From Candidatus Hermodarchaeota archaeon (GTDB taxonomy: Archaea > Asgardarchaeota > Hermodarchaeia > Hermodarchaeales > Hermodarchaeaceae), in assembly GCA_016840065.1 (NCBI GenBank), contig JAEOTB010000037.1:27670-91669 (forward strand): DNA of 64,000 nucleotides. Reading direction: 5' to 3'. This document shows, one piece after another, positions 44,712-62,606 of this stretch; position 1 is the stretch's first letter; every line of letters starts with the position of its first letter. Made by a program: the position numbers and the translations under genes. The notes beneath the pieces were generated by a model, which was not told where the DNA came from, searched no databases, and saw only the letters and a list, made by a program, of their open reading frames with translations.

Positions 44712-46157
44712 ATGAAAGTAAAAGAAGCGTGTGGCGTTGTTGGCATCAGTGCAGTTCCTCCGACCCGAGTTGCACCTCAAATGTATGTCGGTTTATTAGC
44801 CCTGCAGCATAGGGGTCAAGAGAGCAGCGGATTATGTACTGTTTCTGAAGAAGGGCTTGAGAGTCGGAGAAGAAAGGGACTTGTAAGCAAGTTCTCAGGT
44901 ACAGAAATAGACCGTCGTAAGGGGTGGGCGGGGATTGGACATGTCAGGTATAGTACCACTGGTGCGGTTCGCCTTCGTGAAGCACAACCCTTCCTATTCT
45001 CTGCGGGAAACACACGGTTAGCTCTAGCATTCAATGGAACCATTGCAAATTATCGAGTGCTACGGAAAGAACTCAGACGGGAACGTTACAAATTCCTTAC
45101 CTGTACTGACACAGAAACAATTGCTCAGCTTTTCGCCGCAAAGCTAAGAAAGACAGGACATGACTACATCTCCTCCTTTGAGTCCTTAATGGAAGAGCTG
45201 ATTGGCGGGTATTCGCTCGCAATATTAAATGAGAAAGGCGACCTTTTTGCAGTTCGTGATCCTTTTGGGTTTAAGCCGCTCTGTCTAGGCAGACTAAGCC
45301 AAGAGAGTTTTAGTGTTTCCTCAGAGAGCGTCGCGTTCGACACAATGAGTGGTCAACTTGTACGTGACGTGAAACCTGGTGAAGTTGTCAAGGTCAACCA
45401 TGACAGCGTAGAAGGAGTTCAAATCCAGAAGGAGGAACGGCATGCTCACTGCATGTTCGAATATGTTTACTTCAGCCGCCCTGACTCAGTTATTGATGGA
45501 CGCTCTGTTTATCAAGTTCGCCAAAGACTTGGAAGAAAATTAGCAAAGATCCACCCAGCAAAGGCGGACTTGATTATACCAGTACCTGACTCAGGGAGGG
45601 GGGCAGCCACTGGATTCTCTATTGAGAGCGGACTCCCAATCAGGGAAGGTTTGATGAAGAACCGATATATCGGTCGCACCTTTATTATGCCAACACAGGG
45701 ATTCCGGGAATTTTCTGTAAAGCTAAAACTAAATCCTGTACGATCGGTTGTAGAAGGAAAGAACATAGTACTCGTTGATGACTCGATTGTTCGTGGCACA
45801 ACAATCAAACATATTGTTCGGCTGCTAAGGAGTGTTGGTGCTAAGAGCATCCACTTACGAATCAGCTGTCCACCGATAATCATGCCATGTTACATGGGCA
45901 TTGATTTCCCAACTAGGCGGGAACTCATTGCAGCAGACTATTCTGTTGAAGAAATATGTCAGTACATCGGTGCTGATTCACTCGGTTACATGAGCGTTGA
46001 TGGACTAGCAGAAGCGATTGAAATACCTAGAAATCAGCTTTGCCTTGCCTGCCTAACCGGTGATTATATCCTCCGAGAACGCCTAAAGGGACAATCTGTC
46101 GAGGCTCTAGAAACCGCCTTCTCAAGACGACTCCCATCACCTAGGCAAGAACCCTAG
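44712..46157 (+). CDS. purF: Amidophosphoribosyltransferase
   Basis: MKVKEACGVVGISAVPPTRVAPQMYVGLLALQHRGQESSGL; PRTase motif IVLVDDSIVRGTT. Confidence 0.97.
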   Translation: MKVKEACGVVGISAVPPTRVAPQMYVGLLALQHRGQESSGLCTVSEEGLESRRRKGLVSKFSGTEIDRRKGWAGIGHVRYSTTGAVRLREAQPFLFSAGNTRLALAFNGTIANYRVLRKELRRERYKFLTCTDTETIAQLFAAKLRKTGHDYISSFESLMEELIGGYSLAILNEKGDLFAVRDPFGFKPLCLGRLSQESFSVSSESVAFDTMSGQLVRDVKPGEVVKVNHDSVEGVQIQKEERHAHCMFEYVYFSRPDSVIDGRSVYQVRQRLGRKLAKIHPAKADLIIPVPDSGRGAATGFSIESGLPIREGLMKNRYIGRTFIMPTQGFREFSVKLKLNPVRSVVEGKNIVLVDDSIVRGTTIKHIVRLLRSVGAKSIHLRISCPPIIMPCYMGIDFPTRRELIAADYSVEEICQYIGADSLGYMSVDGLAEAIEIPRNQLCLACLTGDYILRERLKGQSVEALETAFSRRLPSPRQEP

Positions 46158-46222
46158 TCTCAACTGATACTACAATTTTTCCGTTGTGAGAAGTAGCGCC
46201 TTTCCAATAGGAATTCGGATGA

Positions 46223-46531
46223 CTATTTTATTGAAATTTCTATGAAGACTTCTTCAGGAACACGGATTCGCATTATCTGACGCATGGTTCTTTCATCCGC
46301 TTCCAAGTCGATAAGGCGTTTGTGAATGCGCAGCTGCCAGCGATCCCAGGTTGGAGTTCCCTCCCCACAAGGTGATTTTCGGGTCTGCACCTTCATGATT
46401 TTAGTTGGTAAGGGAATAGGACCAGACATGTGAACCCCAGTACGGCTGACAATGGCCTTCACTTGCTTACAAACGTCATTTAGCTTGCTAATATCCACAC
46501 TTGACAGCCGAATACGCGCCTTTTGTACCAT
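46223..46531 (-). CDS. rps10: 30S ribosomal protein S10 (uS10)
   Basis: [75 protein letters not shown]. Confidence 0.96.
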
Positions 46532-46698
46532 CTTTATCAACACTTAGCTAACATTTCGCGTGATGACTTGCCATCGATAAAAAGGCTTCCATATAACTCT
46601 TTTTACCAAACACAAAAACGAAGTATTAGCAACAGCTAACACTGACATAAATCCGAAAAAAAGAGGAAGAAGAGACAAGTGCCCTAGAGCACTGTCCA

Positions 46699-48054
46699 CT
46701 ACTTCTTTACTGTTATCTTCTGTACTACTCCAACAGCCACTGTGCGACCACTATCACGAATCGCAAACCGACCCAGCTGCTTCATATCGGCAAACCGCTC
46801 TAACACAATTGGCTGCACTGGACTGAACTTGACGATAGCTGATTCACCTTGTTTGATGAAGTCTGGCTTCTCCTCCACCGTCTCGCCAGTACGAGGATCA
46901 ATCTTGCTGATAAGCTCAGTGAAAGTCGTTGCCATCTGGAGTGTGTGAGCGTGCATAACTGGTGTGTACCCAGCGGCTATGGCTCGTGGGTGATGGATTA
47001 CGATTATTTGTCCAACGAAATCTGTGATAACCTTGGGTGGGTCGCTGACATGACCCATGACATCACCACGTTGAACCTCGCCTTTTCCAATGCCACGAAC
47101 ATTGAAACCGATGTTGTCGCCCGGCTCAGCCTTCTGCATTTTCTCATGGTGCATCTCGATTGACTTGACTTCGCCCGTATGCCCAGAGGGCATGAAGATT
47201 ACTTTATCGCCAACTTTCAAAACACCAGTTTCAACTCTACCAACGGGAACAGAGCCTACGCCAGTAATGGTGTAGCAGTCCTGGATTGGTACTCGCAATG
47301 GTGCTTTGAGTGGTTTCTCTGGCTGTACGAACTTGTCAAGAGCCTGGAGCAAGGTGGGACCTTTATACCAGGGCATGTTCTCACTAGCCTTATCCAGCCC
47401 ATCTCCTGTCCAACCGCTGGTTGGGATGAAATCGACTTTGCTTGGATCGAATTGAGCACCCTGGAGCACTGAAGTGACTTCTGCCTTGATTTCCTCGTAG
47501 CGTTCTTGGCTCCAAGGAGGCGTAGAGTCGTCCATCTTGTTCACAGCAACAGCGACCTGCTCGATACCAAGGGTTCGGGCAAGGAATGCGTGCTCACGGG
47601 TCTGCCCGCCCGCACTGATTCCAGCTTCAAACTCACCCTTACGTGATGAAACGACAAGAATCGCCGCATCAGCCTGGCTGGCACCCGTAATCATGTGCAA
47701 GAATTAAGGAGCGTACCCCTCAATTATTCTTGATGAAGTCCGCGTGCCCAGGAGCGTCAATCAGCGTGAAGTAGTGTTTTTGTGTCTCGAATTTTCGAAA
47801 AGCTAGATCGATTGTTAGCCCACGTTCTCGCTCTTCCTTCAAGCGATCCATTACTTACCCCTTCATATCGTGTGATATGAAGTGTAGGCGAACTTGAACG
47901 AGGCGTCTTTCGTTTCTGATGCTAGCTTTTCTAATTTGAGCATTTCTTGTTTCGTTAGCGCACCCGTGACATATACGAGGTGGCCCATTAGCGTTGATTT
48001 ACCATGATCAACGTGACCAATGATGATCAAGTTGATGTGTGGTTTAGTAGCCAT
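46699..48054 (-). CDS. tuf: Translation elongation factor 1-alpha, three exons: 48054..47884, 47854..47727, 47695..46699
   Basis: Spliced reading: 57 codons ...ASFKFAY + 42 codons [42 protein letters not shown] + AA^C + [22 protein letters not shown]... to stop = 431 aa, uninterrupted and collinear with archaeal EF-1A. The middle exon is too short to appear in the ORF track. Confidence 0.93.
47696..47726 (-). other. Predicted 31-nt bulge-helix-bulge intron (EF-1A intron 2)
   Basis: TAATTGAGGGGTACGCTCCTTAATTCTTGCA: inner stem AATTGAGGGG/CTCCTTAATT with UACG loop, central helix CAAG/CTTG, bulges AA^T and CA^C, outer helix TCAT/ATGA. Splicing gives ATC AAG AAC ATG ATT ACG = IKNMIT. Confidence 0.93.
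47855..47883 (-). other. Predicted 29-nt bulge-helix-bulge intron (EF-1A intron 1)
   Basis: ACTTCATATCACACGATATGAAGGGGTAA: inner stem CTTCATATC/GATATGAAG, loop ACAC, central helix GCCT/GGGT (two G.U), bulges AC^A and AA^G; weak outer helix. Splicing gives TTC GCC TAC GTA ATG GAT CGC = FAYVMDR. Confidence 0.88.
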
Positions 48055-48219
48055 TTCTTAATCTGCCTCTATTATTTTTTTCAACTATTTTTGGCTTGAA
48101 CTTTTATCATACTTTATTGTTGTATGATGTCTGCTTGACATCGGTTCAAGCTTTGGTCAAGTCGCTGTGGTTGCTATAAAACTCTTTTGGCAAAGTGTTT
48201 ACTTATGTTTGTAGAGAAG

Positions 48220-51200
48220 TCAAAGTGGTAGGAGGGCTTGGAAGGGGGATAACATAGGTGCTACTGTGGCTACTAGCACGCCAAGTATTTGTCCAAGAAG
48301 ATTACGGACGATTTGACCCACTACTTGATTGAGAAGAACCTTAACCACTCCAGCAAGAGTGAGATTACAAACCATCTTCCCCACAGGGAGTAGAACGCTA
48401 TACCAGAGCCAAACCACACTATCACGAACAATTGGTGATAACACACTAAGTATCCATGTAGCTATGAGATGAGCAAAATCTGCTAGCGTAAAGAAAGGAA
48501 AGCCCAACGCTTGCAGACTTGCCCCGAAGCCGGTGATAACTAAGCTTAGTAACCCCGTCGCCGATAAACTCGTAGCAGTAATACCCAAACTAAACACTGA
48601 CCCGCTGATGTATTGGAGAACTATAGCGAAAATACTGAATACAACGCCAATAAGCCAACCATATTGTGTAAGTGTAGCGAGGAAGGTGTTGATAGTGAAT
48701 GTTAAGAATATGAAAAGCGCTGTACCGATTGCGCTGAGAATCAATGGGAGCAAGCTGCTGAATAAACTAGTAAGACCACTCCCAGTTGAAGCCGAAGAAG
48801 TGGAGGCTAAACCCCCACCAAGAGCCCGACTAGTTAAACTAACAACGGCAAAATTCTGTATCAAAACGAGAAGCGGCGCTAATGAAGTGTATCGAGCATC
48901 CATTGTATTAATGCCAAGACTTGTGAGGATACTCTGAATGGCAGTAGTGATAGTGATTGCTACTAGAAGGGCCTTCCAGCGGCTGGGATTAAGTAACTGC
49001 CGAACACGCTGTTTGATTGTGAAAAACAGGTTCTTTGCATAATCCTTCAGCCTGTCTGTTAGCTGGTCGCGAGCGCGACCTGTAAGCATCTGTATGTAAC
49101 TAGTTTCAAGAATAATTTGGGAAGGAAACTTTTGGCGCACAAACCGATCGAAAACATAGAATCTGCTGTAATATCCCCCTTTGTAGGTGTTTCCCCCACG
49201 AGAGCCGTATTGCCAGCTATTCCCTAATGTTCTATCTAGATTCTCGAAGATTGCGGGCCATCCACCAGGGTTTCCCCATCGACCTGTTTGATCTTTACCA
49301 TTGTAGATGAAGGAAAGTTTTCCCCATTCCTTGTATGTAGACCATATTTTCTCATCAATGGATAGACTTCTCACGGTTTTTCCTCTATCAATTTCCTGAT
49401 CAGATTGTAGAGGAACAGGGCAGATACGACCCACCCCAAGTACTGCACAGAAATAGATGAGGGTGTTCAAATCATCCCGAGTTACATCATCTAATCCATA
49501 ACGCCATGTTCGATCACGAGCAGAATTCTTTCTTGCCGTCCAAAACGACCACGTTAATCTATAGAGTTTATTCTCTCCAAATCCACGAGTTGTACGACGG
49601 AGCCCGTAATACTGATTCAATAGTCCTACATGTCGGTATTTGACATGAGTGGGCTCCAGTTGCATCGTCACCCCAACTGGTCCAGCAGGCGTGTTAACCA
49701 ATTGAGTACCAGTTAAAGCCAGAGTTGTCAGGCCCATTAGCGGGTCAATATGCCCTTCACGACACTCGAATTCTACGAGCCGAAGCCCACCTAACTGTGG
49801 TTCGTCTGGTTTGGGTGGCATTTCATCATTCTGTTGAGGTTTCAGAATGAACAAGTTCCATTTAGTTTTCATTACCACATCAAGACGTTGTTTCATCGAA
49901 AGTAGTACGCCTTGAATGAATGGATTTAGTTCTTGAAGTGTCGGAGGGGCTGCGATGAATAATTGATTCTGATATTTCCTCTTTACCTCTTTGACGGCTT
50001 CGGTCTGGAAAAGAGGACCTTCGTCACAAAGAATACCTCTAGGAACCCCAGCAATGCAGCTGTAAAATTCAGCAAAGAGTAGGTATTGTCCTCTAATAGT
50101 TTTAGTCGAGAAGCCCTCAATATCTCCTGGATAATGTGTGTGTATCTGGGCATTGTTTGGATTTAGTAAATCCCAAAGACACCAGAAACTCTTTCTCTTT
50201 GCTGAAACTCCAGTAAATCCAGTTCGAGTGGGAATAAGAAATGTGGGTAGTTCAATCCACCTATTACTCCATGTAGGCGCTTGGCTTGGTTTGTATCGAG
50301 CAGTAATCGTGGGATTAAGTGGAAGAATGAGAATAGCACCTTGCTGATTCTTGATATGGTTGATAAGGCTAGTATCTTGCTGGGCTAGTTCTGCAGTATC
50401 AATGTTTGAACGGTCTGGTTTGAGTATGAGAGCATTCTTGATATGGGCGACAACTGCATCTGAGTGGACTGGAAGACCATGATTCCTTCGGGCTTCTTGG
50501 AAATCAGCGTTGTCACTTATTCGATATATCACTTGGAAAGTGGAGTAGGTTTTCCCTTTGTGATGTGTGTAGGTAATGAAGTTGTCCCGGACAATTCCAA
50601 GGTTTTCTTCTTCAAAATAAACACGTTTTGTACCTTGCCCTGGAGGCGCTAACGCCATACGCTCTTCGTAAACCGCTGATGCTTGCTGCCAGTAAAGCCC
50701 CTTCGCATACCTTCCATCTCCTATGCCCGCCCAATGCCGAAAGATAAGAACTTCTGTTGTTAACTTAAGTGAGCCAATCACAGGAATAGGTGTGCTATTC
50801 AGAATCTCCTTTTCCAACCCCCTAACCTGCGAGTCAATCATCACACCCTCCTCAACAAGTGTAGCCATTGCTGGTAAAATTTCTTGGATTTGGGGAATAA
50901 GGATACCAATCTCCTTAACCGTAGTCCAGTCTAATCCCTTCATCTTGTCCAGTGTTTTCCTGATAGTTCCTTGAATTTGTTCTTTCATTATGCCTATACG
51001 GCCACACTTCAACGCTTGATCCAAGATATTGACATACGGGAAAGTCTCTAGTGTTGTTGGGTAAATGGCTTCAGCACCATAGTCGGGAGTTGTGAAAGTA
51101 CCTGAAGCTCCAGGTGGGGGAGGTGAGGTCTCATCCTCACCAAAAAGGAAAGCTTGCAGAAAAAACCCAATTACTGGCAACTCTAACAGCTTGCTTATCA

Positions 51201-54200
51201 GAAATTCAAGAGGTACGAATATGATGTTAGTTAGTGCATTTCGAACCGCTGTAATGATGCCGAATATTGCCTGTAATAGCACCATTCCTAATGTCATAAG
51301 TATCGTCTTCCCAATTTCTATTAAAACGCTCAAACACTGTGTAATGAAATCCCACGCAGGTCCTAGAATTGCCTTGGGGTCGAAAAAGCTCAATTGCCCG
51401 TCTGTCACCTTCTTGATAGCATACTGGGTAGCTAACTCGCCTACAACCTCTGGTAGACTCAAGGGTTTCCCTGAATGCCTGTTCAGAGCCTCCGCTACCC
51501 CCTTAATCACATACATAGGCTCTTCAATATAACCAGCCTCAAAAAGCAGAATAGCCTGCACACTTCTGTCATATACGACTTGCCAGCCGAATCTGTCTTC
51601 TAACCCTGCATTCAGTTTCAACAGTCGCAGTAACCCGGTCAGCTTGTAAGATGCTTCTTCCAGATTTCGTATCTTAGCATAGTGAATTAGTTCATCAAAG
51701 AGACGCTGAGCCTCCAGCCCCACCTGATTCCACGTCTCTGAACCCGCATCCTTGTACATCGACTCCGCAGTAGATAAGAGGGAATCGCGAGCTTCTTGGA
51801 TGCGTTCCTGCAAAGCAACCTCGTCCCTCAGCCTCGCAAGCTTTGCCAAGGTTTCCGCTACTTTTACCTCCACTTGTTTCTGATGGATTACGGCCAGTAT
51901 CGTGTTCTCTAGGTACTTGTCTAGAGACTCATAGCCTAAATCCCATCCCCGCACCACCACCTCTCCATAAAAGAGGAAGGTGGGCACAAACCAGCCCATA
52001 CTCAAAGACCCCTCAAAGACCTGAGTGGGAGCAAGATAGGGCTTGACACGGGACCAGTCCGCCTCCCCTACCTGATACTCTGGTGTGGTTGCAAAGGGAC
52101 TCGCCTCGACTGATAGCAGCTGCGTTGACTGGAGGGCAGACTGCAAGAACTCGTCTTCCACCAGTGGATTTGAGTCAAAACACCATCGCTGGAGGTCACC
52201 CTCACCCAAATAGTACAGATCATCGCCTAACTGTTGTTGAAGGGCTTGAAGCCGTAACATCTCTGCCAGCGATAGACGAGCCGCATCTACGGTGTGTTTT
52301 GTCGGGTCAACAGCGGTACGATAGCCCACTAAGAGGAAGCTACCTAATACTGTAGTGAGGGGTTCTACTTGGAAGGTTGATAGGTTCAAGGCTTGGAAGA
52401 ATTGTAGGAGGTCTTGGGCATAGGCATCCAAGTTGGTTTGAGCGTGGTGGTGTAATTGCTCATGGAAGGTCAGAAAAGAAATATCTCCAGGGAGGCTAGC
52501 TCCAAGCCCTGCGAACATAAAAAGCAGAAGTTTGGGATCAACAAACGCAAGACCAGCTAGGCAGATAACAATCCAGGGTCCATTCATTAGGATGTAACTA
52601 CCAATCAGTTGCTTATCGTCAAGAGAAGCAAAGACATTGAGAATTGTGGTCTTGGCCTCGGCTTCTCCTGCCTGTAGGAGTGAAGTTCCCACAAACTCAG
52701 CCCGTAGGGTCACCACACCCACAAGACTTTGGGACACCAGCCAATCTAGTGTAGCCTCTCCTTCGGCGTTGGTGTAGGCTTCGCCAAGAAGTGATGTGCC
52801 GTTTATCCCCTCAAGGAAGAAGCGGATAAGCTGATGTGCCACTGGCTGTCCAGTGCTAGTGGTTACGATTGCAGTTATTTGGGTTGTCTGTTGAGTTGTA
52901 AGATCCGCTGGAACCGACAATGTAAGTTGGGTTGTCGCCACCACACAGAACTCTATTATCTCACTGCTTGCACCAGCCGGACTCTTTGCGATGACAGTCG
53001 CCGTGTAGCTGTGCATCCCCTGTAAGGGACCGATGATACCCGATGTCATCCACACACTACCATAACAGGAGAGAGCAAAGCTTTCTGGTACACTGTTGCC
53101 ATCGGTGTCAAGCTGGACGGTGAGTGTGAGGAGGTCGTCAGGGTATGTGGCGTTCAGAGTGACCTGTACACTCAAGGTGTCTGTATCACAAATTGTCGCA
53201 TTACCATAGAGGGTAGATAGCTTTGCAGTCAAGATGGTGGGCGGATGGTTGCAGAGGGTGACACTCTGCTCTGCTTGGCAAGTTCGTAATGCCAAGTCAT
53301 ATCCAATGAGGGTGAGGATGTGGTCACCATCTGGTAACGTGCTAGTATCGAGGGTAAGGGTGTGGCTACCTGATGAGTGGAGGCGGAATAGCACTACCTC
53401 GCCATCTAATAGTAAGATTGCTTCTCTCATGTTCGCATCGGCGAGAAAGAGGGTGATTTCTACAATGCCTGTGAGGATGGTTCCTGCGGTGGGGGTGTCA
53501 ATGCGAACCACTGGGTTCTCCAAGTCCACAGTGAAGGCTTCGGTGTATTCTGCGACATTACCCGCAATGTCAGTGGCTTTGATGAGAACTGTGTGTGGAG
53601 CCGCTGTAACTGCTATTGTAAAGGTGGTCTCGTTGGTGTTCTCTGCAACACCAGAGAATATGCCATCGATGAAGAGTTCGATTGTCTCGCAATGCCTGTC
53701 TGTTACAAAGACCACCACGTCAAGCGTGGTGTTTTCGGTGAACCCTGCCTCCGTTACTGGCAGAAAGACCTCCAAGATGGGTGCTGTGCTATCTATGAGA
53801 AAAGTGACACTCCGAGCAAGAGCATTTCCTGCGCGGTCCATTGCCTGAACCAGTATTGTGTGGGAACCATCAGTGAGATTGGTTAAGGTATATTGGCGGT
53901 AACTACCATCGAGTTCAACAGCTAGGGTTCCATCGAGGTAAACAGTAAAGGTTGCAATCCCTGCGGTGGTGTCGCTGGCACTCCACTGAATACGCGGATT
54001 TACACTAGAAGTGTGAGAGTCTTCCAAGGGGGCTGTGATGGCTAGAGTCGGGGAAGTTGCGTCTGTGGTAAAGATGTTTGAGGTGCTTTGGTGATTGCCA
54101 GCCAAATCAATGGCTTCAACGGTCAAAGTGTGTATGCTCTCGGTCAAGTTGGAAAGCAGGAACATCGTGTCTACGGTGTTCGCCAATAAAACGCCGTCAA

Positions 54201-56610
54201 GGTAGACCTGATAATAGGCAATTCCCGTATTGTCAGTTCCCTCCCAAATAGCTGACAAACCAGTAGCGCTATAGTACTCACCCTCCAATGGTGATGCTAT
54301 TACGACATCGGGTAATGTGTTATCTACAACCACAATAAGGCTGTGAGTGGCTATCCAACCTACACCATCGGAGGCTATAGCAGCCAGGGTGTGGTTACCA
54401 TCACACCACTCTTGAGTATCCCAAGGAAACAGAAAGGGAGGACAGGTCGTTGTGTTGTAGAGGAGAACACCATCAACGGACAGGACAACCCACAACACAC
54501 CAGAGGGATTGATACCAAAATCATCTGCTGATACCTCCACGACAACGGTTTGGCTGAGAATTGTTCCCTCAGAGAGAAAATCCACCGTTACAATGGGTGG
54601 TGTGGCGTCAACATGAAGCGTTCGTAACAAGCTAGCCCAGTTCCCCACCCTATCTACTGCTGTGGTATTCACGGTGTATGTTCCTTCTATTGTGGGTACT
54701 GTCCATTCTTGGGTTTGTGAGCCTGTATCAGTTGTTGAGATCCTGTGATGGTAGTTATTGGGACCTGTGATGGTCAGGTTGGAAGCCGCCAACCCTGCTG
54801 GGGGATTGCCCTCATCGGTCTGCTGCCACACAAGACTACACAGTTTTCCCGCAGCAACATGAGCAGCATTGGCTGGGGCAGAGAAGGAAAGGAGGGGTGT
54901 CGTGCAATCAATCAGATAGATACCGTGAATTGTTGTTGCACCCACTTCACCAGTTTGGGGGTTTACCGCAAATGCCATCACATCGTACCAGCCCTCCAAT
55001 ACACCAGCAACAACCTCTGTCAAGTAGCCATCACCACTCCCATTTACAGGAAGATAGAGATTACCACTTGGTTGTTCATAGACTTGGGTGCCATCACAGA
55101 TAATTCGATATTTTGCAAAGGTGGGACCTGCTGCATAGGAGACAGTCACATTGAACTGATCGCCCACAGCCGCATAGGTTTGAGTCGAATCTGCTGTGAC
55201 ACTCCACCCCCCATGTGTTGCCAACCTGTTAACCGAGTTTGCGGAAAAAGTCCAAACACCTTCTGCAGGATTATTCACGAATATACTATACGACGCTTCA
55301 CTGAGCGAAACAGAGCCTGATGGGTTGTTGGGGCTAGATTGGTAATTACTCCAGCCACAGGGGAGGCTGAGCGAGAAGCTCCCCGGTTGCCACTGGGCAC
55401 CCGTAACTTGACTACTAAAGGAAATGCCCCAATCAGCAAATGAAGCACCACTGATAACGGAAAAGGTGGTGTCGGCGGTACGCTCCCAGCTAGCCTCCAT
55501 TGATTCGTGGTGATTGAACACCGTCACAGGCCAATCCGAGGCACCGCTGTCTGAGCGAGTGAAATAATATGAAGTACCAGTACCACTGGCGCAAGTATCT
55601 AAAACACTCACATGACCCTTTCCCCAGTCCACTCCATTTGACACCGCATACTGCTTGGTGGGATCCGCTTCACTTCTAAGAGCTAGGTCCAGGTCACTGG
55701 ATCGAAGCTTGTGGAGAGCCCACAGGTTAGCATAGTCAAACCGCACCGCACTCCAATGACTACTGAACAGGGTTGAAGCAGTGGTCACCCAGACATTTAG
55801 ACGAAGCTCAATGGTTGCCGCATGATCCGGTAGGGCGCTGTCAAAATGCAGGTTAACCTCATCGGTTACCCAGGTGTCCAGCGGCGAAGCCAAATCCATA
55901 TCATAGGGGGTGGCTGCTAGTACGCTATCGACGTAGATTTGGGCGCATATTCGCACCCAGTTTTTGTAGCGAAAGCCAAGGGTTAGTTGGGTGCGGTGGA
56001 GGGGGAAGAGTCCGCGTGTGTCGCTGAACCAGCCCGGCGGCACCAAGAAGCTTTGGCTGAAGTAGCCCTGACAGGTACCCTGGTAGATAATCCAGCCGAT
56101 GAGGAGGGGTGATTCGATTTCTCCGTAGGATATTCCTTCTTCACTGGCAAAGGAGATTTGGGCGATTCCATCGGTGTGGTTGGTCCAAGGAGTGCCGTGG
56201 TCGAAGTGGTAGTCGCTGAGCCATTCGCTGCGCTGCCCCCATAAATCGCCCACATAGGAGGTGAAGAAATAGTCGAAGTAGGTTCCCTCCGTGGGCGGAT
56301 CCACTTGGGGACCTATCACTTCCAGCGACGAGGCTTCGGTCATGTAGCGGTTTGTGGTGGGTGTTGTACAACCTGCTGTAATAGTGCCAGAAAGGGGTGC
56401 AGAAGACCCTGAGAAAATATCCACTCCACTTGTTGGAGGTATCAGTTGTTGTGGGTTTGGATTGGCGATTGGTAGAGTTTGCTGATGGTGAGAAGCTGAC
56501 TCCCTTAGAGGAGGAGAGTCTGTAGTGAGGTGGGGGGATTGGGGGAAGGCGCTGATGCTGCCTAGAAAGAGAAGGAGGAGCACGCAGGCGATGGAACCAT
56601 TCACCTTCAT
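48220..56610 (-). CDS. Giant (2796 aa) secreted/membrane surface-type protein with repeated Ig-like domains and C-terminal multi-TM region
   Basis: Signal peptide-like N-terminus MKVNGSIACVLLLLFLGSISA; repeats such as TDATSPTLAITAP / IDSTAPILEVFLP / VDLENPVVRIDTP with DGSHTI..A.D.AGN; hydrophobic segments centrally and at the C-terminus. Confidence 0.8.
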   Translation of the reverse strand: MKVNGSIACVLLLLFLGSISAFPQSPHLTTDSPPLRESASHHQQTLPIANPNPQQLIPPTSGVDIFSGSSAPLSGTITAGCTTPTTNRYMTEASSLEVIGPQVDPPTEGTYFDYFFTSYVGDLWGQRSEWLSDYHFDHGTPWTNHTDGIAQISFASEEGISYGEIESPLLIGWIIYQGTCQGYFSQSFLVPPGWFSDTRGLFPLHRTQLTLGFRYKNWVRICAQIYVDSVLAATPYDMDLASPLDTWVTDEVNLHFDSALPDHAATIELRLNVWVTTASTLFSSHWSAVRFDYANLWALHKLRSSDLDLALRSEADPTKQYAVSNGVDWGKGHVSVLDTCASGTGTSYYFTRSDSGASDWPVTVFNHHESMEASWERTADTTFSVISGASFADWGISFSSQVTGAQWQPGSFSLSLPCGWSNYQSSPNNPSGSVSLSEASYSIFVNNPAEGVWTFSANSVNRLATHGGWSVTADSTQTYAAVGDQFNVTVSYAAGPTFAKYRIICDGTQVYEQPSGNLYLPVNGSGDGYLTEVVAGVLEGWYDVMAFAVNPQTGEVGATTIHGIYLIDCTTPLLSFSAPANAAHVAAGKLCSLVWQQTDEGNPPAGLAASNLTITGPNNYHHRISTTDTGSQTQEWTVPTIEGTYTVNTTAVDRVGNWASLLRTLHVDATPPIVTVDFLSEGTILSQTVVVEVSADDFGINPSGVLWVVLSVDGVLLYNTTTCPPFLFPWDTQEWCDGNHTLAAIASDGVGWIATHSLIVVVDNTLPDVVIASPLEGEYYSATGLSAIWEGTDNTGIAYYQVYLDGVLLANTVDTMFLLSNLTESIHTLTVEAIDLAGNHQSTSNIFTTDATSPTLAITAPLEDSHTSSVNPRIQWSASDTTAGIATFTVYLDGTLAVELDGSYRQYTLTNLTDGSHTILVQAMDRAGNALARSVTFLIDSTAPILEVFLPVTEAGFTENTTLDVVVFVTDRHCETIELFIDGIFSGVAENTNETTFTIAVTAAPHTVLIKATDIAGNVAEYTEAFTVDLENPVVRIDTPTAGTILTGIVEITLFLADANMREAILLLDGEVVLFRLHSSGSHTLTLDTSTLPDGDHILTLIGYDLALRTCQAEQSVTLCNHPPTILTAKLSTLYGNATICDTDTLSVQVTLNATYPDDLLTLTVQLDTDGNSVPESFALSCYGSVWMTSGIIGPLQGMHSYTATVIAKSPAGASSEIIEFCVVATTQLTLSVPADLTTQQTTQITAIVTTSTGQPVAHQLIRFFLEGINGTSLLGEAYTNAEGEATLDWLVSQSLVGVVTLRAEFVGTSLLQAGEAEAKTTILNVFASLDDKQLIGSYILMNGPWIVICLAGLAFVDPKLLLFMFAGLGASLPGDISFLTFHEQLHHHAQTNLDAYAQDLLQFFQALNLSTFQVEPLTTVLGSFLLVGYRTAVDPTKHTVDAARLSLAEMLRLQALQQQLGDDLYYLGEGDLQRWCFDSNPLVEDEFLQSALQSTQLLSVEASPFATTPEYQVGEADWSRVKPYLAPTQVFEGSLSMGWFVPTFLFYGEVVVRGWDLGYESLDKYLENTILAVIHQKQVEVKVAETLAKLARLRDEVALQERIQEARDSLLSTAESMYKDAGSETWNQVGLEAQRLFDELIHYAKIRNLEEASYKLTGLLRLLKLNAGLEDRFGWQVVYDRSVQAILLFEAGYIEEPMYVIKGVAEALNRHSGKPLSLPEVVGELATQYAIKKVTDGQLSFFDPKAILGPAWDFITQCLSVLIEIGKTILMTLGMVLLQAIFGIITAVRNALTNIIFVPLEFLISKLLELPVIGFFLQAFLFGEDETSPPPPGASGTFTTPDYGAEAIYPTTLETFPYVNILDQALKCGRIGIMKEQIQGTIRKTLDKMKGLDWTTVKEIGILIPQIQEILPAMATLVEEGVMIDSQVRGLEKEILNSTPIPVIGSLKLTTEVLIFRHWAGIGDGRYAKGLYWQQASAVYEERMALAPPGQGTKRVYFEEENLGIVRDNFITYTHHKGKTYSTFQVIYRISDNADFQEARRNHGLPVHSDAVVAHIKNALILKPDRSNIDTAELAQQDTSLINHIKNQQGAILILPLNPTITARYKPSQAPTWSNRWIELPTFLIPTRTGFTGVSAKRKSFWCLWDLLNPNNAQIHTHYPGDIEGFSTKTIRGQYLLFAEFYSCIAGVPRGILCDEGPLFQTEAVKEVKRKYQNQLFIAAPPTLQELNPFIQGVLLSMKQRLDVVMKTKWNLFILKPQQNDEMPPKPDEPQLGGLRLVEFECREGHIDPLMGLTTLALTGTQLVNTPAGPVGVTMQLEPTHVKYRHVGLLNQYYGLRRTTRGFGENKLYRLTWSFWTARKNSARDRTWRYGLDDVTRDDLNTLIYFCAVLGVGRICPVPLQSDQEIDRGKTVRSLSIDEKIWSTYKEWGKLSFIYNGKDQTGRWGNPGGWPAIFENLDRTLGNSWQYGSRGGNTYKGGYYSRFYVFDRFVRQKFPSQIILETSYIQMLTGRARDQLTDRLKDYAKNLFFTIKQRVRQLLNPSRWKALLVAITITTAIQSILTSLGINTMDARYTSLAPLLVLIQNFAVVSLTSRALGGGLASTSSASTGSGLTSLFSSLLPLILSAIGTALFIFLTFTINTFLATLTQYGWLIGVVFSIFAIVLQYISGSVFSLGITATSLSATGLLSLVITGFGASLQALGFPFFTLADFAHLIATWILSVLSPIVRDSVVWLWYSVLLPVGKMVCNLTLAGVVKVLLNQVVGQIVRNLLGQILGVLVATVAPMLSPFQALLPL

Positions 56611-56793
56611 TTTAGGTACCCAGTTTGCGAGCGGATTTTAGTTCCTTTTTATGCGTTACGACCAATTCGGTCTTTACAATTCTCCCTTTTTTCCCTTCAA
56701 AAACTAAACAAGTATCGTAAATACCCCCAATGATGTGAAGGGTGAGAAGCTAGCTGGAAGGTAGATTTTTAACAATCGTTTTGAATTGACCTG

Positions 56794-58830
56794 ATGGAAG
56801 TAGGTAACTCATACTCCGCCTTAATTTACCACTACCATCGTAGTGCAATGAGGGAAAGTATCATGAAAATCACGAAACTGAAAATTACAGATTTCAAGGC
56901 ACTCCGCCATTTCGAGATGGAGGACATCCCTGACATTGTGGTGCTTGGTGGACCCAATGGTGTTGGCAAGTCAGCTGTTCTCGAAGCTATCAGCTACCTG
57001 AAGACTAACCTTGGCCCTTATCACGGAGGTTTTAGTCGGGATAAATTGAAACAGGTAGTCACGACAAATGCTGAATATGCTGAAATTAATGCAACCTTCC
57101 GACTACATCGAGACGAAGTAGAGTATATTCAAAAAATTCAGCCAATTCCTCTTCCGCTAAGCGGTGATCACGAACTGAGTGGTGCCGTGAGAATCTTTCC
57201 AGACGGGAAACCCCAAGTTATTAAACGTGACGACCCACTACCCAATCTTCTCGGATTATACGACAGGCATCGCTATCCGCAAATTGGTATCGTCGAGCAT
57301 CTTGATCCCCACAGACAGTTGCCACCGAAGGCAATTTCATCTCTGTCCCTCAAAGGATTCGATGACCCAGAGGAGAAACAACGTAGAATTATAAAGACAG
57401 ACACCAAGTTTGCCTTAACGAAGAACTACCTAGTTCAACTTGCTACTGCTGATGCATTTTCAGTATTAAGTGCAGTCCAGCAAGGAGAACAAGTGAGTAG
57501 TAAAGGGATTCCTGATTCACTCTTGCCTATTAAAGAGATTTTTGATAACTTGTTAGCACCTAAGAGATTATTGCGTGTCGATTTGGTAGCAGGCCAACCT
57601 GCACAGGTTATTGTTGAAACGCCTAATGGTGAAGTGGACATCGATGCCCTTAGCTCGGGGGAAAAGGAGATTCTCGCAGTATTTACCGAGTTTCACAAGC
57701 TCAAACTACAGAACTCAATTGTCTTGTTCGATGAACCTGATCTCCACCTTAATCAGGAAATCGAACGACGATTAATCGAGCAATTTAGGAAGAGCGGAAA
57801 CGGAACGAACCAGTTTTGGATTGCTACTCACTCCTTAGCAATTATGGATTCGGTTGAACACGACGAACTATTTCGTTTAGAGAACTACCGTGGAGAAAAT
57901 CAAGTTGTTCATGTTTTTGAAACAGCAGAGAAGAGACGGCTCTTCAGACATGTTGCGGGAAGAACAGGGCTTGTGACCCTTGGACGCCGCATCATCTTCG
58001 TTGAAGGTGATACCGACCTTGGTCTGCTGAGAACACTTTATCCCAATCTACAAGGAAAAGTCACCTTTGTACCCAGTGGAGGGGTGAATCCTGTTATGGG
58101 TATCCAAAGGCAAATCGTCGACCTATTATCGATTGCAAGCCCCTTTACGCATTTCTTTGCCATCCGTGACCGGGATTTTGCCCGTGCGGAAGAGATTCAG
58201 AAATGGCAGAAAGATGCAAAAGAAAAACTGTTCATCTGGTCGAAATATCATCTTGAAAACTTTCTCTTGGATTCATCAGCTATCTTTGGAGTTCTCCAAA
58301 CACTACTTAGTGAGAGGAATCCCTTTTCATCACCAAAAGATGTGGAAGCTAAACTACGGGAAATTGCAGAAAGTGAACAGGAGCGGGTTGTGGTCAAATG
58401 GATGCAGTACGAGTTGCGAAGAAAAGTATGCAGTACAGTATGCAAATCCTCCTTCAATGAGAAGGTCCAAGGAACGCGAAGGACATCAGCCCGCCGTGGT
58501 GTAGTACGGAAGCTTAATCCATCAGATCTTGAAAAGAGTGCAGAGTCTAGACTTGCCAGTATTCTGTCCGAGGTTGAGGAGGTAAAAAGTAGTTTGGGGA
58601 AATTAATTGAGGATATCCGTTCTAGCGTTGAAGCAGCCTTGGCAGGAAATGAGTGGCGGGATGTGTTCCCTGGTCGAGAGATTCTGAAGCAGTTCGTTCA
58701 AAAATACGGTCAAGGTATAGCATACAAACACTTCAAGAATTTAGTGGCAAATGAAATTCAGCGAAAGGGTATCCCTGAAGAAATTCAAGAGTATCTGAAT
58801 CATATTATCCAATATGAAGAGGAAGCCTAG
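56794..58830 (+). CDS. OLD-like AAA ATPase with C-terminal TOPRIM/DUF4435-like domain
   Basis: MKITKLKITDFKALRHFEMEDIPDIVVLGGPNGVGKSAVLEAI; LSSGEKEILAVF; SIVLFDEPDLHLNQE; ATHSLAIMDS; then RRIIFVEGDTDLGLLRTLYP...HFFAIRDRDFA. ATG at 56863 is the likely start. Confidence 0.85.
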   Translation: MEVGNSYSALIYHYHRSAMRESIMKITKLKITDFKALRHFEMEDIPDIVVLGGPNGVGKSAVLEAISYLKTNLGPYHGGFSRDKLKQVVTTNAEYAEINATFRLHRDEVEYIQKIQPIPLPLSGDHELSGAVRIFPDGKPQVIKRDDPLPNLLGLYDRHRYPQIGIVEHLDPHRQLPPKAISSLSLKGFDDPEEKQRRIIKTDTKFALTKNYLVQLATADAFSVLSAVQQGEQVSSKGIPDSLLPIKEIFDNLLAPKRLLRVDLVAGQPAQVIVETPNGEVDIDALSSGEKEILAVFTEFHKLKLQNSIVLFDEPDLHLNQEIERRLIEQFRKSGNGTNQFWIATHSLAIMDSVEHDELFRLENYRGENQVVHVFETAEKRRLFRHVAGRTGLVTLGRRIIFVEGDTDLGLLRTLYPNLQGKVTFVPSGGVNPVMGIQRQIVDLLSIASPFTHFFAIRDRDFARAEEIQKWQKDAKEKLFIWSKYHLENFLLDSSAIFGVLQTLLSERNPFSSPKDVEAKLREIAESEQERVVVKWMQYELRRKVCSTVCKSSFNEKVQGTRRTSARRGVVRKLNPSDLEKSAESRLASILSEVEEVKSSLGKLIEDIRSSVEAALAGNEWRDVFPGREILKQFVQKYGQGIAYKHFKNLVANEIQRKGIPEEIQEYLNHIIQYEEEA

Positions 58831-58896
58831 TCGGTATGCAAGTTATTTGGAGAAAAATGGACATATTGTTCAACAATACTAGGAGGGTACAGGTTC

Positions 58897-61767
58897 GTGT
58901 CATATGTTGAATCATTGCAGGATGTGTTGAAGCGAAAGAATAAGACATTGTGGAAGCGTTTGGAGGGTATCCGAGAGAAGGCGGAAGCGGTCCTCCAGTA
59001 TGTTCATGGACAATTCCCATATTATACACCACACGGCATCCACCACAGTTTGGCTGTTGAAGAGATCCTTAATTGGTTGGTACTCGACGAAGTCAAGGAC
59101 AAGATGGCAGCGGAAGAGCTTTTTTTTCTTATTGTAGCAGCTTGGCTACATGATTGGGGTATGGTTAAGGCCCAGGATGAGCCGCTCACACCTGAAGAGG
59201 TACGAAATCAGCATCATCTACGAACTGAGATGTTTCTCGAACAACTACACACAAAAGTTGGATTAGAACTACGTGAAGCTGAGATTGTGGGGCGTATCTG
59301 CCGTGGTCATCGACTTCGGGAGAAATTAGATACTCCGCTCTATGGGGATTTGGATTTTGGGAGTAACATCTTAATTCGTCGCCGTTTTTTAGCTTCATTA
59401 CTGCGATTAGCTGATGCCTGTGATGTAACACACAGCCGTCTACCAGAGATAATCTATTTCAATATCAGCCCTCAGGGACTTACAGAAGACCATTTCAAGA
59501 GGCATCTAACTATCTATGGTGTGGGTCGAGTTCCAGATGCGCCGCACAAACTTCGTATTAGTGGAGTTGCTCGTGAACCTCGAGGGGCAGCAACTATAGA
59601 AGAGATACGCGTTCATATTCAAACAGAACTTGATAGTGTCAAAGGGTTCCTCGGTCAGCACGGTATTGTGCTCGATGTGGTGGCTGCACAGGTAGATGCC
59701 CGAGGGTTCATCAATGAACCAATACGTTTCGCCCTAGCTTCGGAACGTATTCTTGATTTACTCATTGGTCGAACATTATATGAGAGGGAAGATGTAGCAA
59801 TACGGGAACTCTTACAGAATGCTATTGACGCCTGCTACGCTCGTGTAGCTAGTGACCCTAAATTTAGTGTTGAAAATGCACGTATCGAAATCGCAGTAAA
59901 TCAGTCTCGCGTTGTAATAGAAGATAATGGAATTGGGATGACTTTCGATTGGGCAACTAAATATCTCGCACAGATAGGGATAAGTTTCTATGCTTCTGAA
60001 GCATTTGAACAACTTGTTCAAGACAAATACGATCCTATCAGCAAATTCGGTCTAGGAATTCTTTCATGTTTTCTCCTTGGTAATGAATTAACGATAGAAA
60101 CTAAAAGAGAAGGGTCAGAGCCTTGCAGGTTTATCATCCGTAACCTCCAAGAAGGTTGGCTGTATCAACGTGGAACACGAACAACCCCTGGTACACAAAT
60201 CACACTAGAGCTTAAACCCTCAATCAATGTTGATCTTGATATATCAATTCTCCATTATGCTCGCTGTGTAGATATCCCTATTTTTCTTAATGGAGAAGCT
60301 TTGACACATAACTGGGGGATGCAGTCCCTCGAATTTATTGAATATTTATCCAAAGAGGAATCCCAAGAAGAGTCTAGAACATATACATTTCAAACGCCAT
60401 CATTCGACTGCACTTTAGTCGAGATTGATGCAACAATAGATGGAAAACCTGCAATCCTTATAGCGAATCGAGGTATTTTTGTCGAGCTTTGGAACGGAAC
60501 TGCCAACAACATGCAAGTGCTCTTGGGTGGGGTCATTGGTTGGATTAACATAAAGAAGAGCGATATTGTTGAACTATCTGTTTCTCGCGACCGTATCATT
60601 TCTATGATACCCATCATTGTTGAACTCGTAAAACTAGCAGCAAAAGACTGGGTTTCTCGGTGGAAAAGAAAATTACCTCCTCGTGGTTTAGAAGAAATTA
60701 GTTACTTTCTAGAAAACGAGTTGGAAGAATCAGCCTTATCGCTCTTTTTCTGGGAAGAACTTCAGCTTGTGGTACGCCCTGAACAGCTTATGTGTCCCGA
60801 ATTCAGTAAGTGGATGGACTATGTAGAACCTCGCATCGATTGCACTACCAGTCCACTTGCTCTATTAGGAGAAAAGGCGTTTAGGAAAGCTGTTGGGAAT
60901 GAACCATACACGGTTGTGCTAGTCCCTGAATTTGCTCCTTTGTCAAGGTCGAGAGCCGATTTGAAATCATTTCGTAGAACTGTTTGGGATGAATCTTATC
61001 TGATTAGAAGGATAACAGGGCCTGATATTCAGATTACAGATTTGTCAAAAAAGGAGTTGTTAACTGGTGTAATTCAAATCCTTGGAATGCTCCCAGAACA
61101 GAAGCGCAAACAAATGGGACATATTTCCCTACAATTATCTGGAGATATCCCGAAGCCTCCGAGTGAAATTAGTATTGCGGAAATTGTTTCGAGCGTTCTC
61201 GATGAATGTGTAGCAGGCAAAGCCCTACCAGACTGTATGGCTCCTTCATGGGTTTTATTCGGCGATTACCCCGAAATATTTCATGTAATAGCACCAAGTG
61301 AGATAATAATTCAGACACGCCCATTGGTGATTCAGATTGGTGACCATACAATCTGTGAAGTTGGTAATGCTAGGATAAAATGTGACCGTGCATACTTGGA
61401 CTACGATGGAAGGAAGATTTCAGAAATTACCGCCCCCTACAGGGCAAAACAGATTGCTGGAGATTGGTTGGCTTGCGAATTACTTCCCTCAACAAGCTTC
61501 TTAAGAAAGGAACGACTTGACCGGTGGAAGGCTTTCAAACGCTATGTCACAGAGAAATCCTCCAGTGAACCTAAAGTTGTACCCCCGATATTTCTCCTAG
61601 ACCAGGGGAGGAAAATCTTCTCACAACTTTGGGAAAAAAGAGATGAATTAGCTGCTCACGCTCATAATGGAGCGCTTGCGAGACTTTGGTTAGCAGGCTT
61701 CATCCTCCACGAGTTCGGTTCTCAAGTACCCATCGAAAGAGAAATTCTGAGTTTCTTCTTAGATTGA
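58897..61767 (+). CDS. HD-domain plus HSP90-type (GHKL) ATPase fusion protein
   Basis: HGIHHSLAVEEIL...FFLIVAAWLHDWGM (HD); then REDVAIRELLQNAIDACYAR...VVIEDNGIGMTFDWATKYLAQIG...SKFGLGILSCFLLGN (GHKL N, G1 and G2 boxes). Confidence 0.85.
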   Translation: MSYVESLQDVLKRKNKTLWKRLEGIREKAEAVLQYVHGQFPYYTPHGIHHSLAVEEILNWLVLDEVKDKMAAEELFFLIVAAWLHDWGMVKAQDEPLTPEEVRNQHHLRTEMFLEQLHTKVGLELREAEIVGRICRGHRLREKLDTPLYGDLDFGSNILIRRRFLASLLRLADACDVTHSRLPEIIYFNISPQGLTEDHFKRHLTIYGVGRVPDAPHKLRISGVAREPRGAATIEEIRVHIQTELDSVKGFLGQHGIVLDVVAAQVDARGFINEPIRFALASERILDLLIGRTLYEREDVAIRELLQNAIDACYARVASDPKFSVENARIEIAVNQSRVVIEDNGIGMTFDWATKYLAQIGISFYASEAFEQLVQDKYDPISKFGLGILSCFLLGNELTIETKREGSEPCRFIIRNLQEGWLYQRGTRTTPGTQITLELKPSINVDLDISILHYARCVDIPIFLNGEALTHNWGMQSLEFIEYLSKEESQEESRTYTFQTPSFDCTLVEIDATIDGKPAILIANRGIFVELWNGTANNMQVLLGGVIGWINIKKSDIVELSVSRDRIISMIPIIVELVKLAAKDWVSRWKRKLPPRGLEEISYFLENELEESALSLFFWEELQLVVRPEQLMCPEFSKWMDYVEPRIDCTTSPLALLGEKAFRKAVGNEPYTVVLVPEFAPLSRSRADLKSFRRTVWDESYLIRRITGPDIQITDLSKKELLTGVIQILGMLPEQKRKQMGHISLQLSGDIPKPPSEISIAEIVSSVLDECVAGKALPDCMAPSWVLFGDYPEIFHVIAPSEIIIQTRPLVIQIGDHTICEVGNARIKCDRAYLDYDGRKISEITAPYRAKQIAGDWLACELLPSTSFLRKERLDRWKAFKRYVTEKSSSEPKVVPPIFLLDQGRKIFSQLWEKRDELAAHAHNGALARLWLAGFILHEFGSQVPIEREILSFFLD

Positions 61768-61941
61768 GTTCTTTTGAAGCTATACTGCCTGTTTGTCACT
61801 AGATATTCTACAGATACCAATCATTGGATTTTTTGATGATCAAAAGAATTCTGTTTCCTTATTTTTGGCTTGGAGATGATTAGTTATCAAGCGACGAGAA
61901 CTCTTTTGGCAATAAGCCTAGCTTTGAGAAGGGGAGGTGTT

Positions 61942-62589
61942 TTAGCGCGCTGAGAGAGCCATGCGTTCCTTTTCTTCGCGGCGTCGCATTGCGCTGCTTC
62001 TGGAGTCGCCTGTTGAGGCAGCAATTAACTCGTCGGCAACAATTTCCTCTACTGGGGTTAAGGTTCCGAAGCATTTGCTCCAGACCGCTTCGGCTAGGAA
62101 ACGAAGCGCCAAGTCTATTCGGCGGAGCGGTGCTACATCACAGGCAGTATGATAGCTGATTCCGCCATAACTGATGCGTGTTGTCTCCTCTCTTGGTGCT
62201 GCATTTTCTATTGCTTGAACAAGGATTTGGATTGGATTTTTACCTGTACGTAGATGGATGATTTCGAAGGCGCTTTGGACGATGAGTATAGCGTGGCTTT
62301 TCTTACCCGCGATTAGTCCTGCGTTGCGGCTTCCTGCGCTGCGGCGACGTGCCCAACCAGGAGTCATGAGCCGGTTTATGAAGCGTTCAACGATTGGGAC
62401 ATGTTGTTTGCCAAATCGACGACGTTCATGTCGACCATGAGTGTGAGGAACAATGACTGGGCGCAAGCAGATGTATTTAGCAAGGGCAGGATCACTTTTT
62501 TCTATGCTACTTGTACCCCATCTATCAAATAGCTTTATTTCTGCGGAGGTGGACTCTTCGGATGGTTCGGACGTGGGATCTGTGGACAT
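61942..62589 (-). CDS. rps7: 30S ribosomal protein S7 (uS7)
   Basis: KLFDRWGTSSIEKSDPALAKYICLRPVIVPHTHGRHERRRFGKQHVPIVERFINRLMTPG; C-terminal AMRRREEKERMALSAR. Confidence 0.97.
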   Translation of the reverse strand: MSTDPTSEPSEESTSAEIKLFDRWGTSSIEKSDPALAKYICLRPVIVPHTHGRHERRRFGKQHVPIVERFINRLMTPGWARRRSAGSRNAGLIAGKKSHAILIVQSAFEIIHLRTGKNPIQILVQAIENAAPREETTRISYGGISYHTACDVAPLRRIDLALRFLAEAVWSKCFGTLTPVEEIVADELIAASTGDSRSSAMRRREEKERMALSAR

Positions 62590-62606
62590 GTGATTTCAGC
62601 ACCTCG

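Follow-up and report, generated by a model that had tools for sequence, protein, structure and literature searches.

A fused AriAB gene and an HD-CE-HSP90 gene share a mobile-looking insert in the str operon of an Asgard archaeon

Introduction

Why do two large ATPase genes lie side by side within a ribosomal-protein operon of an Asgard archaeon? An earlier note on this DNA took them for a single two-gene module, without a name, with a candidate role in defence or stress, and placed them in an accessory insert. We analysed the locus within a window of 64,000 nucleotides, part of a contig (C10) of 131,885 bases, from a host genome of 2.59 Mb that is 84% complete; about 228 genomes of its phylum were covered. 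The two open reading frames are where the note had placed them, on the same strand and 66 nt apart (gene 1, 56794-58830; gene 2, 58897-61767), and every motif it quoted or named is present (GPNGVGKS, SSGEKE, LFDEPDLHLN, IFVEGD, RDRD, HDWGM, ELLQNAIDA, DNGIGM and FGLG). Domain profiles match both gene 1 (AriAB, E 3.5e-82) and gene 2 (HD-CE, E 8.4e-35), so the motifs are not chance occurrences. What remains to be answered is what each gene encodes, and whether the two belong together.

A 13.7-kb insert in the str operon

The genes lie between rpsG (S7) and EF1A. Beyond one end are S7 (61942-62589, minus strand), S12 and NusA-like and L30e-like genes, and beyond the other EF1A (46702-48054, minus strand) and then S10. 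In the sister species G002 the site is uninterrupted, with S7, EF1A and S10 contiguous (L089), and S7 adjoins EF1A in five same-family genomes as well. BLASTN aligns the G002 locus with the window as far as 61939 and then again from 48193 on. A direct repeat of 14 bp, AACTCTTTTGGCAA, marks the left end of the insert, on the EF1A side (48180-48193), and the right end, on the S7 side (61899-61912); the insert is therefore real and spans 48194-61912, about 13.7 kb. The uninterrupted G002 site holds a single copy of the repeat, with one mismatch. The 14-bp length would also fit a target-site duplication.

The insert carries three large genes: gene 1, gene 2 and, as co-cargo, a predicted surface protein of 2796 aa (48220-56610, minus strand) with a signal peptide, Ig-like repeats (Big_13, Big_3_3) and C-terminal hydrophobic segments. 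No recombinase is recognisable within it. We read the insert as a small, mobile-looking island. Neither gene of the pair was found in the seven other genomes of the family (two of the same genus, 80-81% complete, and five of the same family, 74-86% complete), and the operon is uninterrupted in those relatives whose site is assembled, which excludes vertical conservation of the pair in a housekeeping context. An assembly or binning chimera was considered and rejected, as the contig reads through S7, insert and EF1A and both flanks match at 80-84%.

The neighbouring EF1A gene has a peculiarity of its own. Insertions of 29 nt (47855-47883) and 31 nt (47696-47726) break its frame, and removal of both restores the full 431 codons exactly. 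They are absent from G002 and the five same-family genomes, and no other full copy of EF1A was found in the genome. Each can be drawn by hand as a central helix of 4 bp plus two bulges of 3 nt, the cut falling after the second base of the bulge; the outer helix is good for the second insertion and weak for the first. Compared with shuffled sequence, both have stabler folds (z -2.3 and -4.7). We regard them as candidate archaeal bulge-helix-bulge (BHB) mRNA introns in an essential gene.

Gene 1 as a fused AriAB

Gene 1 opens at 56794 on the plus strand (678 aa). Its true start is probably the ATG at 56863 (Met24), because a GAGGGAG-type ribosome site is present, Met24 is nearly invariant among relatives and the model shows no structure for residues 1-22, so that we annotate 56863-58830. 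In the PADLOC library it scores 275 bits with AriAB, against 85 bits for the next-best family. Among Pfam models it matches AAA_21 (66 bits, cut-off 27; E 6.7e-18), AAA_15 (60 bits, cut-off 32.1; E 3e-16) and, marginally, DUF4435 (26.7 bits against a cut-off of 27; E 5.7e-6), and thus unites in one protein the AAA_15/AAA_21 ATPase and DUF4435 by which a fused AriAB is recognised.

The predicted catalytic residues of both the ATPase and the TOPRIM/DUF4435 nuclease are intact in this one chain. Walker A (GPNGVGKS, aa 53-60, 56950-56973), the ABC signature (LSSGEKE, aa 286-292, 57649-57669) and Walker B (VLFDEP, aa 310-315, 57721-57738), all on the plus strand, are conserved across 14 AriAB relatives, in which G53, N55, G58 and K59 are invariant; so are the TOPRIM catalytic glutamate of the VEGD motif (E404, 58003-58005, plus strand) and the DxD aspartates (D459 and D461, 58168-58176, plus strand), and a further glutamate, E488, is likewise conserved. 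An AlphaFold model (mean pLDDT 71) gives Foldseek matches to the structures of PtuA, retron Eco7/Eco8, GajA and TsOLD. A profile of the C-terminal parts, however, recovers the AriB structure 8ux9_A only weakly (E 0.24, PDB profile search). By its sequence gene 1 is a fused AriAB, which is PARIS as a single gene. The domains and motifs of an OLD-like ATPase with a TOPRIM/DUF4435-like part, as the earlier note described them, hold; but since gene 1 is a named system by itself, it is not half of an unnamed module.

How close is the likeness to PARIS? Gene 1 shares with it the ABC/OLD-type ATPase and the DUF4435/TOPRIM nuclease with their catalytic residues, here in a single chain, and differs in its Asgard host, its HD-HSP90 neighbour and an identity of about 17-28% to the relatives compared. 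AriAB fusions are already on record from a genome survey that covered both bacteria and archaea (Rousset 2022, PMC9122126). The OLD-type ATPase fold is common to Gabija GajA and the retron Eco8/PtuA effectors, and TOPRIM is found in GajA and Eco8 too; the insert, however, lacks the adjacent UvrD-like helicase GajB that would mark Gabija, the neighbours of gene 1 being the surface protein and HD-HSP90 genes, and as regards a retron it has no reverse transcriptase reading frame, nor is there an Rfam match in 46000-62600.

On a rival reading, gene 1 would not attack tRNA as PARIS does but would act alone on DNA, as a Class 1 OLD nuclease. It is a single gene, its fold matches take in TsOLD and GajA, and a review leaves unclear whether fused AriAB differs from Class 1 OLD in its action (PMC10568477). 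We nevertheless think this rather unlikely, as the OLD-like TOPRIM model (PF20469) reaches just 14.1 bits on gene 1, below its cut-off of 23.2, and AriAB and DUF4435 are preferred.

Two other Asgard genomes carry fused AriAB genes, with PADLOC scores of 253 bits (G142) and 240 bits (G147). Weaker AriAB matches (E 1e-4 to 1e-16) occur in nearly all Asgard genomes and also in all 14 control genomes; we rejected these as cross-hits to related ABC-type ATPases, and convincing hits are confined to G000, G142 and G147. Relatives of AriAB were not found among phage GenBank records, and a scan of IMG/VR with the single protein of gene 1 or gene 2 returned nothing; alignment queries did give matches. 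A Lichenicola plasmid of 28.8 kb holds two PARIS-type loci, a fused AriAB followed 2.6 kb on by a separate ATPase and DUF4435 pair (L092:1947-8567).

Gene 2 as an HD-CE-HSP90 protein

Gene 2 (58897-61767, plus strand; 956 aa) starts with GTG, 10 nt behind the ribosome-binding site AGGAGG (58881-58886, plus strand). Comparison with Pfam and NCBIfam models, profiles and structures shows an N-terminal HD phosphohydrolase domain that has all its metal ligands, an HSP90-type ATPase whose motifs are intact, and a C-terminal half that diverges fast. The HD-CE domain (aa 40-209, 59014-59523, plus strand) scores 121 bits with Pfam PF24391 against a cut-off of 27, and H46, H50, H85-D86, H106, H138 and D173 are invariant in 24 HD-CE proteins. 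Such an H...HD...H...H...D ligand set is typical of two-metal HD phosphohydrolases. The GHKL ATPase domain that follows (aa 281-470, 59737-60306, plus strand; HATPase_c_3, 9e-10) has intact N and G boxes (E304, N308, D343, G345, G347, G385 and G387), nearly invariant among 24 relatives. Only the family profile, which extends into the middle domain of TRAP1/GRP94, points to an HSP90 middle domain in gene 2. Except for G526, the invariant or nearly invariant columns of the 24 relatives end at residue 433, and the structure model can be trusted only over residues 1-470, where it matches HSP90, TRAP1 and HtpG; the C-terminal half (aa 471-956, 60307-61764, plus strand), poorly conserved and of low pLDDT, is a candidate sensor region.

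Gene 2 has the N-terminal ATPase fold and the N, G1 and G2 boxes in common with HSP90/HtpG chaperones, but it bears an N-terminal HD domain, has no recognisable C-terminal dimerisation domain and is not a housekeeping gene here; with full-length HtpG/HSP90 equivalog models it scores 76-93 bits, below the curated cut-offs of 371-455. When gene 2 and three relatives were searched against PADLOC 2.0.0, no defence family covered the HD-CE-HSP90 architecture, and weak REase_II matches of gene 2 were discounted as reflecting the shared GHKL fold. A parallel in organisation is the Shedu protein VcSduA with its N-terminal GHKL ATPase (PMC12137116), in which a GHKL ATPase and a hydrolase effector are likewise joined in a single defence protein; there a PD-(D/E)xK nuclease serves as effector and the GHKL domain comes first, whereas in gene 2 the HD domain does.

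Does the pair recur?

Co-orientation, the 66-nt gap and a good ribosome site make co-transcription of the two genes likely. Could they then form one module, with AriAB as the sensor and the HD-CE-HSP90 protein assisting as its effector or regulator, or keeping it primed in the manner of an HSP90 chaperone? Their common strand and short gap, with gene 2 having its own ribosome site, speak for it, as do other genomes in which HD-CE-HSP90 genes adjoin ABC-ATPase systems (ABC-3C or Lamassu-like, two genomes, L229 and L232) or follow PDC-M28ABC genes (two genomes, L244 and L245), so that teaming with ATPase systems is possible.

A module should recur, and this one does not. We ran profiles of AriAB relatives and of HD-CE-HSP90 relatives over the loci, after removal of duplicates. 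An AriAB neighbour occurs at 0 of about 38 other HD-CE-HSP90 loci (about 36 from Asgard archaea, Bacteroidota and proviruses, plus two from Planctomycetota; about 20 of the HD-CE loci compared come from one bacterial phylum), and conversely 0/15 other strong AriAB loci have an HD-CE-HSP90 neighbour (two of them from Bacteroidota, the other thirteen from Asgard genomes, plasmids and proviruses); contig ends cut some of the flanks. Finding none among 38 makes it unlikely that the true pairing rate in these samples exceeds about 8%. The Asgard AriAB genes of G142 and G147 have no HD-HSP90 neighbour, the G147 contig being only 3.4 kb long, and the closest Asgard relative of gene 2 (L080; 46% identity over the N-terminal 192 aa) has no AriAB upstream and is preceded by a tyrosine-recombinase-like gene. 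The pairing is probably incidental, and we judge a single module unlikely. Of the module first proposed for this locus, defence as a general function is well supported; its two-gene nature, for which homologues would have to co-occur, is not.

HD-CE relatives and their neighbourhoods

HD-CE conflict proteins (PF24391) combine an N-terminal HD-CE domain with an NTPase or repeat region and a variable C-terminus, and gene 2 follows this plan with an HSP90-type ATPase where others have NACHT or TPR, or, for iHD-CE, a caspase. Most HD-CE domains we compared are fused to HSP90; others are joined to NACHT with pentapeptide and WD40 repeats (L296) or to TPR (L082, L293), and in a caspase fusion (L295) the iHD-CE model scores higher than HD-CE. 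This last, from a Planctomycetota-group genome, is a single protein of 1403 aa that unites caspase, iHD-CE and an HSP90-associated wHTH (L295:5547-9758, minus strand). Relative L229 matches the PADLOC defence reverse transcriptase profile RT_UG24 (E 1.9e-11). Judged by these fusions and the RT_UG24 match, HD-CE acts as an exchangeable module of effector type at the N-terminus of NTP-dependent conflict proteins.

In IMG/VR, HD-CE-HSP90 genes are provirus cargo (L145-L152), carried singly near lysis, repressor or integrase genes (L145-L147 and others). Among Bacteroidota, about 11/20 loci have a defence-type neighbour, a qualitative count made by inspection: ABC-3C (L229), LmuA/ABC of Lamassu-like type (L232), a TIR-like protein (L236), AbiE (L237), a STAND-like NTPase (L238), an OLD nuclease (L240), an AAA protein with a weak AbiLii match (L247), an HNH nuclease or visible homologue (L242, L243 and L245) and PDC-M28ABC (L244, with visible homologues in L245). 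In two of these genomes the HD-CE-HSP90 gene comes directly after the candidate defence genes PDC-M28A/B/C (L244:4543-10985; L245:4558-11003), and related HD-HSP90 genes adjoin an HNH nuclease; PDC-M28A/B/C and HD-CE-HSP90 possibly form a recurrent multi-gene system. Matches of gene 2 to phage GenBank records were confined to the HSP90 domain, among the matches listed. Our literature search found no experimental paper on the HD-CE-HSP90 architecture, the parts of which are covered by Pfam domain models and so have been noticed by others already.

Gene 2 might instead encode a chaperone for stress or signalling that carries an HD nucleotide hydrolase and has no part in defence. This seems quite improbable to us: the homology of its N-domain to the HSP90 family is strong (NCBIfam, 1.2e-26), but HD-CE exceeds its cut-off in only 10/228 genomes of the phylum, a sporadic distribution, the genes travel as provirus cargo, their neighbourhoods are rich in defence genes, and HD-CE is also fused to caspase and NACHT.

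Discussion

The explanation we favour, as a probable though by no means secure one, is that gene 1 and gene 2 are two separate single-gene defence systems sharing one small mobile island, for which an obligate functional link between them is not needed. For gene 1 this is suggested by the AriAB margin (275 over 85 bits), the two further Asgard fusions and catalytic residues invariant in 14 AriAB relatives; for gene 2, by those invariant in 24 HD-CE proteins, by the effector position of HD-CE beside NACHT and WD40, TPR or caspase, by the RT_UG24 match of L229, and by HD-CE-HSP90 genes being provirus cargo and adjoining defence genes. The reading as a whole is favoured by an insert that direct repeats bound and relatives lack, and by a pairing that does not recur.

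How might the two systems work? In PARIS, detection of a viral protein falls to the AriA part; the TOPRIM nuclease is AriB, which in E. coli cleaves the anticodon stems of tRNA (PMC12409363). By analogy PARIS is the best guide for gene 1, whose trigger, oligomer and substrate can be proposed on that model: the ATPase part would oligomerise and keep the nuclease inactive, sensing of a viral protein by the ATPase would free or activate the TOPRIM nuclease, and cleavage of tRNA or another nucleic acid would then stop virus replication. For gene 2 we propose an NLR-like switch in one protein, mainly because of the domain swap by which HSP90 or NACHT stands behind the same HD-CE. Its C-terminal region may sense infection; the HSP90-type ATPase, where other HD-CE proteins have NACHT, may clamp or dimerise; and the HD-CE effector may hydrolyse a nucleotide or phosphodiester substrate, so that infection is aborted. 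More tentatively, we speculate that HD-CE-HSP90 proteins may be widespread phage- and island-borne immune switches of this one-protein type, with the HSP90-type ATPase replacing NACHT/STAND, one of which might here have been recruited beside a single-gene PARIS as layered defence.

The novelty here is modest and twofold: a PARIS fusion from an Asgard archaeon, and evidence that HD-CE-HSP90 proteins form a widespread defence family. Fused PARIS is now placed in the Asgard archaea, the closest relatives of eukaryotes, and HD-CE-HSP90, missing from the PADLOC library used, genomically resembles defence genes in being sporadic, borne by proviruses and found in islands. If the proposed switch is true, an NLR-like immune protein would have a chaperone-type ATPase for its switch, and this design would be new.
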